40,811 nucleotides of DNA from a virus: IMG/VR virus record IMGVR_UViG_3300036846_000334, positions 1 to 40,811 of that record. The stretch is one strand, 5' to 3'. Position numbers and translations under genes: made by a program. Shown in pieces: positions 8,710 to 23,706 of the stretch. Each line of letters opens with the position of its first letter. The stretch's first letter is position 1. Below the pieces are notes generated by a model that ran no database searches, was not told the DNA's origin, and saw nothing but the letters and a program-made list of their open reading frames with translations.

Positions 8710-8897
8710 CGAGCGCCTGCTTTCTTTCGGGTGGCTAGTGGTGGTGGGCTGAGATGTCGTCCACCGTTGTCGTAATGGCGTTCGATGATCTCGATGATGA
8801 TGGAGGCTTTGGATCGGCGCAGCGCCTTCGCGTCGTCTACGACCTGATCCAAAATCTCGTTCGGGAAACGTACTGGGAGAGTTGTAGTTTTGCTCAT
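8706..8897 (-). CDS. Ribbon-helix-helix regulator 1
   Basis: A 63-residue protein. The N-terminal strand (TTLPVRFP, residues 4-11) precedes two helices, with RRSKASIIIEIIERH as the second, the layout of Arc/CopG ribbon-helix-helix DNA-binding proteins, which bind as dimers through the paired strands. A basic Pro-rich tail follows. It is the first gene of the accessory operon after a strong terminator, and one copy of the operator motif (8925-8934) lies just upstream, so autoregulation is plausible. The ATG at 8897 is used; a second ATG lies 24 bases earlier. Confidence 0.75.
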   Translation of the reverse strand: MSKTTTLPVRFPNEILDQVVDDAKALRRSKASIIIEIIERHYDNGGRHLSPPPLATRKKAGAR

Positions 8898-8938
8898 GCA
8901 TTGGAATGTATCACATTGCATCCGGTTGACTACAAGCG
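8898..8938 (-). promoter_or_regulatory. Promoter/operator of accessory operon
   Basis: Upstream of the regulator on the minus strand: TTGTAG (8935-8930) as possible -35, then 17 bases to GATACA as a poor -10. The operator-like GTTGACTACA (8925-8934, plus-strand reading, eight of ten matches to TATGACTACA) overlaps the -35. An imperfect repeat of ATGCAATG/ATGCATTG lies between it and the gene. Confidence 0.4.
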
Positions 8939-8975
8939 AAAAAAAATCCCCCCGGTGACTCCCATCGGGGGGATT
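8939..8975 (-). terminator. Strong terminator after fibre gene
   Basis: On the minus strand, stem AATCCCCCC pairs with GGGGGGATT (nine pairs, 8967-8975 with 8945-8953) around a 13-base loop and continues into a run of eight T. It stops the late transcript after the tail fibre gene and insulates the accessory operon. Confidence 0.9.
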
Positions 8976-20813: not shown

Positions 20814-23404
20814 CACTGGCTCCTCATCTCCTGCCATGTCTCGCCGAAGACGGTGAACGTGAGCAGCTCGTTCGCGGCGTCCTCCTCCGGCCAGTCGATT
20901 GCGAACTGGAAGTGTCGGCACCACACCGGCTGCTGGTTCTGCAACATCGAGTGGCGGTTGCTGTAGATGCTTTGGCTCGGCGGCAGGTTAGGCGGGTCTT
21001 GGCGGGTGCGCGGCACGGCTTCGAACTCACCCTCGATCTCCTGCAAGAGCACGGAGAGCGCCGGTGGTGTGCCTACCGGTTCGGCCTCCAGTGTCATCCA
21101 CGCCATGCCTGCCATCTGTCCCGGCTCGGCCAGCACTATCGAGCCGATTTCTGTGTGCACCGGATAGGTCGCTCCGTTGTCGGTGTTCACGGTCATGTCG
21201 CGCTTGAGGATCGGTCCACCCGAGGTCGGGGGGCCGAGCAGAAGGTTGTACTCTCCCGGCTCCACTTCCACCGACTGCACGGCGCTCATGCCACCTTCGA
21301 TCAGCGCCGGTGTACTCCAGTTCGCTCCCTGCTCCGGTGCCGAGGTAGGTGCCATGCGGTACCAGAGGCTTGCGCCGTCCGAGACATACAGCGCCGTGTC
21401 TTCGCTCGATTCGGAGTGGAAGGTGACATAGGCCGAACGTGGGTCCAAATCCTCCACGAGATCGGCGATGGGGAAGCTGGCCTCCACGATGCCAGCCGAG
21501 GGATCGAGCGCACCCACCATCTTTTTCCCGGTCAGCAAGTAAGGCGTCGTCAGGAAGATTCCGAAGGCGTCGTAGTTCAGCAGTGGAACATTATCTATAT
21601 AGCGAGTCATCACCAGAGGTGTACCCCCGCTCGCTGCCGGTGCGCCGTCGCCGGTAATCCTGTAGATGTCGCGCACGGTGAACACGAGCAGGCCCACCGA
21701 ACTCACCCAAAAACGAATGATCTTTGACTGCGCGGTGAAGGTGATGTCGAAGCCTGCATTGCCGCTCGATCCACTGGCCACGGCGTCGGGTCCGCTCGAT
21801 ACCCACACCACGTTGCCCACGGCTGCAAAGATGCGGCCTACGTGGTATTCCATGCACGTAGCCCCCGATGGCAACGGTGTACCTTCTCCGTTAACCTGCG
21901 CCTGAATTGATATGTTCAATCCGCTGTCCGGTGTCGTATCGTTATAGGTCCACGTTCCTTGGCTCGGCGTGACCGCGATCTGATCGAGATAGAGAAACGT
22001 CGAACCGTTCTGCAAGATGCGGTAGAGCACGACCGTATCTATGTCGGGATTGCTCGACACCGGCCCTTGTATGACCACCTGATTCCCTTCGGCCAGTGTT
22101 ATAGGTGCCGATGGTGGTGACATATTACTTATGTCGAGGGTCTTTGAATTTTCGTAGGCGTAGCCATACTGCGTGGGGTAGTCGGCAGAGATGGCGACCG
22201 GCCCCTTGTTGATCCACACCACGCCACCGTCCTGCGTCAGACCACCGGTGCTTTGATTCCACGGATTCCCCGGCGAGGTCGGCGGTACGGCTCCCGTCTT
22301 GCCACCCTGCTTCACCTGCTGCAAATACCCGTTGGGATCGAGGATCGTATAAGCGTCTTGGTTAAGCTGCGCTCCCGGCACGACGTGGATTCCCGGCCCT
22401 ATGTCTGACCATGTATGCACCACGCCCATGTTCGTCCACTGCATCGAATTGTCGGTGCTGTCGTGGGTGATCGTGCCGATGCCGTTTTGCCATGCCGGAA
22501 GGGTGAGTCCGCTTATGCCGGTGGTGCCTTCATTGAACAGGCCGAAAAGCTGCGGCTCCGTGGTCGTCGGCCCCGTCGCAACCTGCCCCACCACGGCATC
22601 GCCATAGCGGTAAGCGTGGTTGAACTGCCACGCCTGCGACGACGATCCCGTCCCCATGGTATGCCAGTTCGTCGTTCCATCCGGTGTGTTGGCTCCGGGG
22701 GTGGCGCTGAAGGTTGGTTCAGCGCCTCCGGTGTTTCCCGCAATGGTGGCGCTTTGCAGGGTGTTGGTGTTGGGATCGGAGATGATAACTTCGCCCTGCC
22801 ACCAGCCTCCATAAACCGTGCTCGCGGCCCACACTGGGTAATTGGTCGGCCTTGCGATCTGCGTGACGGTGGGTGCTACGGTCGGCGCTACGATTCCCCA
22901 GCCGGAGACCTGCATCGAGGGGTACTGGAGCTGTTTGTTATCCACGCCGTTAGTGAAAAAAAGGTTATTGCCCACACCGAGGAAAAAGGTTGGTCCTGCG
23001 CCAGCGCTCTTCTGCCAGATGACCTCTTTAGTATTAAGCCTCGTTGGGCTGCTGGTGCAGTCATACACTCTCGCTGCGGTGTCGGCCAGAACGATCACGT
23101 TTTCATCGGCGAGGGTGAAGGTGTTGAACGAATAGAAGCGCTTGATGGGTTCAAAATATTGATCGTTGTATTCGTTCGTTCCCGGCCTGCGGCGAAGCGT
23201 GAGGCGGCTACTAATCTCGCTGTTGTATCCGCTGAGAATCGAGTCCTGCCGCTCGCCGTAATACTTGGCTGCGTCGGCGCTGGTGGTGCCATCGCGCAGG
23301 GGGCTGCGGTTGGAGAACAAGCCGGTGAAGATGTGGCTGGTATGGATCGGCGCGAAGTTGCTCGGCTCCGAGAGCGCACCGGCCTGCTGGAGTGCGTTCG
23401 CCAT
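20813..23404 (-). CDS. Tail nozzle/stabilisation-type protein
   Basis: An 863-residue, strongly beta protein following the head-tail genes, with many Trp, Asn and Gly and repeated strands. Its size, beta richness and position fit the tail nozzle or tubular protein B/P22 gp10-like stabilisation protein of short-tailed phages. Landmarks include TLRRRPGTNEYN near residue 70, VRDIYRITGDG near residue 580 and a C-terminal VWCRHFQFAIDWPEE stretch near residue 834. It starts by TGATG overlap with the small gene upstream. No enzymatic domain is visible. Confidence 0.7.
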   Translation of the reverse strand: MANALQQAGALSEPSNFAPIHTSHIFTGLFSNRSPLRDGTTSADAAKYYGERQDSILSGYNSEISSRLTLRRRPGTNEYNDQYFEPIKRFYSFNTFTLADENVIVLADTAARVYDCTSSPTRLNTKEVIWQKSAGAGPTFFLGVGNNLFFTNGVDNKQLQYPSMQVSGWGIVAPTVAPTVTQIARPTNYPVWAASTVYGGWWQGEVIISDPNTNTLQSATIAGNTGGAEPTFSATPGANTPDGTTNWHTMGTGSSSQAWQFNHAYRYGDAVVGQVATGPTTTEPQLFGLFNEGTTGISGLTLPAWQNGIGTITHDSTDNSMQWTNMGVVHTWSDIGPGIHVVPGAQLNQDAYTILDPNGYLQQVKQGGKTGAVPPTSPGNPWNQSTGGLTQDGGVVWINKGPVAISADYPTQYGYAYENSKTLDISNMSPPSAPITLAEGNQVVIQGPVSSNPDIDTVVLYRILQNGSTFLYLDQIAVTPSQGTWTYNDTTPDSGLNISIQAQVNGEGTPLPSGATCMEYHVGRIFAAVGNVVWVSSGPDAVASGSSGNAGFDITFTAQSKIIRFWVSSVGLLVFTVRDIYRITGDGAPAASGGTPLVMTRYIDNVPLLNYDAFGIFLTTPYLLTGKKMVGALDPSAGIVEASFPIADLVEDLDPRSAYVTFHSESSEDTALYVSDGASLWYRMAPTSAPEQGANWSTPALIEGGMSAVQSVEVEPGEYNLLLGPPTSGGPILKRDMTVNTDNGATYPVHTEIGSIVLAEPGQMAGMAWMTLEAEPVGTPPALSVLLQEIEGEFEAVPRTRQDPPNLPPSQSIYSNRHSMLQNQQPVWCRHFQFAIDWPEEDAANELLTFTVFGETWQEMRSQ

Positions 23405-23706
23405 CAGCGCACCTCCATGTAAACTGGGGAGGCCTTCTCGTAGGGCGGCACGTTTCCGGCATGAGCGCTCGAAACGATTTTTCGTCGAGAGACGAAAACA
23501 GTCGATAGCCCTTGCGGACTACCGACTGATTTCACTACGAGGAGGTGGTGCTGGATGAAGCCTGTATTTCGGCTGTCAGTGAAGCTGTCCGTTTCACTGA
23601 CCTTTGAGACAATCGTAAGCTGGATCGTCTCACTGTTCCGGTAAGCAGATAACCCTCGGTATGGTGTCCGCCATGCCGAGGCCTTTATTGTAACAAACCC
23701 TCTCAT
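23404..23706 (-). CDS. Unknown 100-residue late protein over RNA hairpins
   Basis: Start ATG 23706 overlaps the upstream stop (ATGA) and the end overlaps the next start (TGATG), so it is translated in the late chain. The product is a 100-residue, mainly beta protein, rich in Ser/Val/Thr (LTIVSKVSETDSFTDS near residue 30) with no family match. Its DNA is less GC-rich than the neighbours and contains five consecutive inverted repeats (see 23479-23681). Either the protein is real and its mRNA is also structured, or the ORF is partly fortuitous over a structural RNA; the clean overlaps favour coding. Confidence 0.6.
   Translation of the reverse strand: MRGFVTIKASAWRTPYRGLSAYRNSETIQLTIVSKVSETDSFTDSRNTGFIQHHLLVVKSVGSPQGLSTVFVSRRKIVSSAHAGNVPPYEKASPVYMEVR
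23479..23681 (-). other. Array of five RNA hairpins in coding DNA
   Basis: In mRNA (minus) order: 23654-23681, ten pairs with one mismatch; 23605-23632, nine pairs with one G-U; 23575-23601, nine perfect pairs; 23499-23528, 13 continuous pairs (left arm CAGTCGGTAGTCC, loop GCAA, right arm GGGCTATCGACTG) with two G-U wobbles; 23479-23498, eight perfect pairs. The 13-pair stem and the 23605 stem are continuous only in the minus-strand reading, since their wobbles become A-C mismatches on the other strand, pointing to function in the late mRNA. Confidence 0.7.

Follow-up and report, generated by a model that had tools for sequence, protein, structure and literature searches.

A candidate type I toxin-antitoxin-like module, optionally inserted between two virion genes in uncultivated phages

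A cluster of RNA hairpins in an IMG/VR virus record of 40,811 bases was analysed together with related loci from viral contigs. The record was used at its full length and is referred to as the window, along which all positions are counted. The hairpins are probably parts of a type I toxin-antitoxin-like module that is carried as optional cargo between two virion genes. By sequence comparison, the element was shown to contain a plus-strand peptide gene, its SD, a helix (P0) in which the SD is paired, two terminator-like hairpins and an antisense promoter motif. The same comparison established that the element is present or absent in one genomic slot and that a minus-strand reading frame, the through-frame, is preserved across it. 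An anatomy of the type I toxin-antitoxin kind is well supported. The features are listed in Table 1.

Table 1. Features of the element in the window
Feature	Position	Strand	Remarks
TGTAAACT box, proposed -10 of peptide mRNA	23418..23425	plus	Conserved; putative promoter role
P0 5' arm (anti-SD), proposed mRNA 5' end	23432..23443	plus	12/12 pairs with SD arm; covariation
Hairpin H0	23479-23498	plus	8 bp; leader of peptide mRNA; strand from wobble count
Hairpin T	23499-23528	minus	13 bp, GCAA loop; U-rich tail; proposed intrinsic terminator of antisense RNA
P0 3' arm, holding the SD	23535..23546	plus	Folding and covariation
SD AGGAGG of peptide gene	23540..23545	plus	Complement is the conserved ACCTCC in minus-strand RNA
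Peptide gene, 29 aa, MKPVFRLSVKLSVSLTFETIVSWIVSLFR	23555..23644	plus	SD, start and stop in 9/9 elements
Hairpin inside peptide gene	23575-23601	not assigned	9 perfect pairs
Hairpin inside peptide gene	23605-23632	minus	One G-U on minus in the window
Hairpin H1	23654-23681	plus	U-rich tail; proposed intrinsic terminator of peptide mRNA
TTTGTTACAAT, extended -10 promoter motif of antisense RNA	23687..23697	minus	Motif in nine elements
Predicted antisense RNA, ~190 nt	23494..23681 (ends approximate)	minus	Promoter motif and terminator hairpin at its ends
Through-frame, 100 codons	23404..23706	minus	ATGA overlap with upstream gene, TGATG overlap with downstream gene

All five inverted repeats that the initial annotation had listed between 23479 and 23681 were found where it had placed them, and one further stem, the long-range helix P0, was detected that its list did not contain. 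Folding of the 203-nt stretch gave -83.4 kcal/mol (z -7.3) for the minus strand and -86.8 kcal/mol (z -6.0) for the plus strand. None of 200 shuffled sequences folded as well on either strand. When both strands of the record were scanned in 200-nt segments, the lowest z belonged to 23401-23600 on the minus strand. The reported drop in GC content was also seen (G+C 0.52-0.55 in the region, 0.58 overall), and both terminator-like hairpins, T and H1, were called independently in the window. A structured RNA does overlie an open minus-strand frame, and it matches no Rfam family: no match in the window reached the gathering score, and a relaxed threshold gave chance-level matches only (tfoR, 19 vs 70 bits). 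Elsewhere in the window, the second-lowest fold z belongs to a strong G+C hairpin with a T run (CCCCCCGATGGGAGTCACCGGGGGGATTTTTTTT) at 8890-8975 on the minus strand. This hairpin is followed by TGTGATACATT, an extended -10-like sequence just before a gene that starts near 8901.

Wobble positions were counted over the nine elements on the basis that a G-U pair becomes an A-C mismatch when the opposite strand is read. Plus-only and minus-only pairings numbered 18 and 2 for H1, 6 and 1 for H0, and 4 and 22 for T; wobbles in P0 were 16 for plus vs 1 for minus. The difference between H1 and T had a Fisher p of 5e-7, with related sequences counted separately. This places H1 and H0 in the peptide mRNA and T in a minus-strand RNA; the plus-strand copy of T lies in the peptide mRNA leader. 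The idea that all hairpins are part of a minus-strand RNA was dropped after this count. Not every stem prefers the minus strand: 23499-23528 does, but 23654-23681 has 12 pairs on plus and two A-C mismatches on minus. Details of the 23605-23632 hairpin are not conserved among the relatives. At least three helices (P0, H0 and H1) thus belong to plus-strand mRNA. This had been missed initially, as had the plus-strand gene for the 29-aa peptide and the fact that most relatives lack the element, which is optional cargo.

Peptide frames of 26-33 codons, starting with ATG or GTG, were found in nine of nine elements, each with a GGAGG-type SD 6-9 nt ahead of the start. Examples are MELDLKLRVDRRLVLLAAIALLRLLL (locus L015), MRFEVVLSEKELSLILKIAVTLVALLRLL (L058) and MKPVFRLSVKLSVSLTFETIVSWIVSLFR (window). 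The pooled pN/pS of the peptide over six pairs of relatives, which are not independent and do not include the window's own peptide, was 0.26. This is near the value of the upstream virion gene (0.31), and the other two plus frames of the identical DNA gave 1.00 and 2.26. The nine peptides have a GRAVY of 0.94-1.70, a best 14-residue mean hydrophobicity of 1.66-3.27 and a net charge of +1 to +5, the window peptide being the most diverged and the least hydrophobic among them. Membrane type I toxins are hydrophobic, shorter than 60 aa and have a putative transmembrane helix (PMC8309996); by length and hydrophobicity, the nine peptides fit this description. From these comparisons, we take the peptide frame to be a real gene. 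The proposed -10 of its mRNA reads TGTARACT in eight of the nine elements and TGCTACTCT in L017; a consensus scan called no promoter at this plus-strand position, and there is no recognisable -35. H1 and its U-rich tail stand shortly after the peptide stop, the U-tail being absent in L019. Over seven elements, H1 had a covariation score of 0.623 and was 100% paired, vs at most 0.201 when the positions were slid.

When the plus RNA was folded from just past the conserved TGTAAACT box, its 5' end was predicted to pair with the SD in all nine elements (in L017 in a shifted register), and the mean unpaired probability of the SD was 0.01-0.38. The helix formed in the window, 12 bp long, encloses H0 and T. 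In an alignment of eight elements, cut at set distances from the conserved boxes, P0 had a covariation score of 0.567 vs at most 0.165 when slid; 95% of the cells were paired, and five pairs had changed on both sides. Covariation, which the initial annotation had suggested as a check, was found in both stems tested, P0 and H1, and it amounts to strong support, short of proof because the columns were cut by hand around the proposed stems. PMC6733600 describes sequestration of the SD in the primary toxin transcript as a "major hallmark" among type I loci. For the present element it is predicted by folding in 9/9 elements, with covariation in eight. Between P0 and H0, a conserved and unpaired GGCGGCA was observed on the plus strand of L015, the window, L016, L058 and L023; this stretch of the leader is possibly a ribosome standby site.

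The minus strand appears to encode an RNA of about 190 nt that is antisense to the peptide gene and SD. Its extended -10 reads TTTGnTACAAT in seven elements, with one-base variants in L015 (TATAAT) and L019 (TATACT), and the antisense promoter of L015 also has a good -35 (11/12 consensus). Hairpin T of L017 has no U-tract. As the predicted RNA spans the whole peptide gene and its SD, its complementarity to the peptide mRNA follows from the overlap.

The neighbours of the element are virion genes on the minus strand. The upstream genes with this orientation include those for an SU10-type portal, a major head protein and terminase. Downstream stands an 863-aa gene with a weak head-closure match, and no PHROG or Pfam match was found for the upstream 267-aa gene. 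Searches of viral contigs with the upstream gene yielded 12 loci and then 49, the first set recurring in the second. The flanking genes abut, overlap or lie within 9 bases of each other in 35 of 46 scorable loci, and 11 loci have an insert. The shared element is present in the window and in eight of these 11 inserts (L014, L015, L016, L017, L019, L021, L023 and L058). Read by eye, the remaining three differ: L049 contains a DNA methyltransferase-like frame, L062 a small frame with cysteines, and L022 nothing but a small membrane protein. The methyltransferase-like frame, which has a TDPPY motif and occupies the same slot (L049:3723-4407), indicates that the slot accepts varied cargo. L022 and L023 have near-identical upstream genes and the small membrane protein in common, and the element is found in L023 only. 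Mapping the element label onto a tree of the upstream protein takes 6 changes, and well-supported branches force at least 3 of these, so the element is gained or lost often. The comparisons cover only nine elements, and some of these are close relatives of each other. Directly after the upstream gene, a further small membrane protein (about 33 aa, for example MEQPTQDSSGAVNWLIIVLILMCLAVFWFFTDH in L019) was observed. It precedes the element in 4/9 carriers (L015, L017, L019 and L023) and stands alone in L022, and the through-frame is also open across it.

Phage morons are present or absent between otherwise abutting genes and have their own promoter and terminators. The element resembles them in being an optional insert with promoter motifs and terminator hairpins, in sharing its slot with other cargo, and in separating genes that are adjacent in relatives (35 abutting loci vs nine carriers). 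Unlike morons, its cargo is an antisense gene pair, and the reading frame is uninterrupted across the module.

A composite pattern of minus promoter, H1 and ACCTCC had six matches in the whole viral collection, all of them this element in this slot; the pattern misses L017 and L019, and the collections may lack sequences nearly identical to the window's record. The same pattern had 19 matches in 84,980 GTDB species genomes, none with the stem and the peptide, which is chance level. Within the collections scanned, no copy of the module turned up outside this slot and this phage group. A profile of the upstream gene had no match in the GTDB genomes, and the 5-kb region had no DNA similarity to known phages. 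Of two peptide searches of the viral contigs, A2 missed even the known loci and so carries no information, and A3 returned only its own three sources; by tblastn, the L015 and L058 peptides were absent from phage records and the L017 peptide from plasmid records. Neither peptide nor RNA had a family match at threshold in Rfam, Pfam, NCBIfam or PHROG. The L021 peptide, the only one with a sub-threshold match to TisB, scored 12.0 bits vs a cut-off of 25 in Pfam (PF13939, E 0.3) and 10.1 bits vs a cut-off of 38 in TIGR04459, so that membership in the TisB family is not indicated. Neither the neighbouring virion proteins nor the L058 peptide gave a useful match among solved structures. A search of the record and its close relatives for tyrosine integrases and serine recombinases gave no match, a result from fragments that falls short of proving absence; the sole integrase match came from L061, a distant record.

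The minus frame of 100 codons noted in the initial annotation exists, with ATGA and TGATG junctions, and a through-frame of 94-146 codons is open in nine of nine elements, with lengths conserved modulo 3. Phase is kept in every segment in eight of them, and L017 has two compensating shifts. Dinucleotide shuffling gave a probability of chance openness of 0.002-0.03 per element; since the elements are related, the product of these values is not a probability. The pN/pS of the through-frame was 0.86 before the peptide and 0.58 after it, with lower values in the L021/L058/L023 group. The minus frame is thus strongly kept open, but it is weakly constrained as a protein (compare 0.31 for the upstream gene). 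No homologous protein of the 100-aa frame was found in viral contigs or phage records. We infer that the through-frame is selected for ribosome passage across the module in late mRNA. Under tight coupling, the ribosome prevents intrinsic terminator hairpins from forming (PMC5021804). The SD of the downstream gene was observed to lie inside an inverted repeat at 23404-23430, with counterparts in L058 (ACCTCCA-GTTTACA-TGGAGGT), L015 and L023. This repeat, whose bases also hold the proposed plus-strand -10, could hide the downstream SD unless a ribosome arrives via the open frame.

In the mechanism that we propose, the plus strand would give a leader-rich mRNA for a membrane peptide of 26-33 aa. 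H1 would end this mRNA, and pairing of its 5' end with the SD would keep it silent. The antisense RNA would run from the extended -10 beside H1 to terminator T, over the peptide gene and SD, and would block or destroy the peptide mRNA. Both transcripts are presumably made; the peptide mRNA would be activated by processing, by analogy with known type I toxins, and the peptide would be toxic at the host membrane. In late mRNA, ribosomes finishing the upstream gene would run through the module via the open frame, and their passage would melt T as well as the start region downstream, which would keep up transcription and translation of the virion genes that follow. Because the start of the short antisense RNA would lie past the ATG of the frame, this RNA would not be translated from it, and T would work. 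Taken together, we tentatively propose a new type I family nested in a through-frame that is selected mainly for openness, with late ribosomes disarming T, and with one DNA serving as peptide gene, antisense gene and translational bridge in phages with no recognised integrase. This combined proposal may be correct, and we hold it with less confidence than the module itself.

The same anatomy would also be expected if the peptide is non-toxic, an antisense-regulated small membrane protein used in infection, for example one that excludes superinfecting phages or one that times lysis. Together, the antisense RNA and the late read-through mRNA would then confine its synthesis to one infection phase. 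In favour of this explanation, addiction is an unlikely role where no integrase or recombinase was found in close relatives, and other small membrane proteins and a DNA methyltransferase-like frame also occupy the slot; against it, an antisense promoter combined with SD sequestration would seem heavy control for a harmless protein, and we consider this explanation rather unlikely.

Two further readings keep the minus strand in the foreground. In the reading of the initial annotation, a functional 100-aa protein is encoded on the minus strand and the hairpins regulate tail-gene expression. The frame is indeed open and in phase in all nine elements, the pN/pS falls to 0.58 after the peptide gene and lower in the L021/L058/L023 group, and the SD of the downstream gene is located at the element's end. 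However, most relatives do without the element, the pN/pS is 0.86 before the peptide gene, the 100-aa protein has no homologue, and wobble asymmetry and P0 put three helices on the plus strand; a dual element of this kind is quite improbable, and the element does not look like tail-gene control or a packaging signal. A trans-acting small RNA is highly improbable. It would be a minus-strand RNA exposing ACCTCC like the 16S 3' end, directed at many SD sites or at 16S-binding proteins, with the peptide frame incidental. ACCTCC is invariant in all nine elements and extends in L023 to TCACCTCCTTTCTA, which we take to be close to a typical 16S 3' end, but its conservation is explained as the complement of the peptide's own SD, and the peptide is under purifying selection. 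ACCTCC as a mimic of the 16S 3' end was dropped once the complementary SD and the peptide gene had been found.

The type I toxin-antitoxin-like module can be compared with several described systems. In its predicted anatomy, it resembles aapA/IsoA of Helicobacter (PMC6733600), which has an mRNA for a small membrane peptide, an SD sequestered by pairing and an antisense RNA from the opposite strand; no sequence similarity is claimed. In aapA3, by contrast, a stable long-distance pairing joins both mRNA ends and is released by 3' trimming (PMC6733600). The mRNA 5' end of the module would pair with the SD directly, through P0, so that 5' processing is expected instead. With tisB/IstR-1 of E. coli (PMC8309996), the module has in common a hydrophobic peptide of the 29-aa class, here a putative toxin, and a structured leader; the 5'-processed active mRNA and the ribosome standby site of tisB would also have counterparts in the module. 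IstR-1 pairs with a standby site far upstream, whereas the predicted antisense RNA of the module covers the coding region and the SD. The prophage type I modules of Clostridioides difficile (CD0977.1-RCd11 and others, PMC7699646) comprise toxins of 34-47 aa with antisense antitoxin RNAs and, like the present candidate, are carried by phages. They sit in prophages and help to maintain them, whereas no integrase was found in the close relatives studied here, so that the usual prophage-maintenance role of phage-borne type I modules is not expected. Unlike them, the present module is part of a virion operon and is spanned by an open frame that has been preserved. The parts are familiar; for the setting (a virion operon, no recognised integrase and a preserved open frame) we found no description in the open-licence literature.

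With a tiny peptide and a fast-evolving RNA, type I modules are hard to find. The present one escaped all family libraries that were tried, and only its hairpins gave it away. The combination of G-U/A-C asymmetry and the open-frame rule could find other antisense pairs hidden in phage operons. The arrangement suggests a way for a tightly coupled operon to tolerate terminator-bearing cargo, namely by keeping a frame open through the cargo. If the module is real, it would represent a new peptide family and a new antisense RNA family from uncultivated phages, and it would raise the question of the job of such a pair in phages with no sign of lysogeny.
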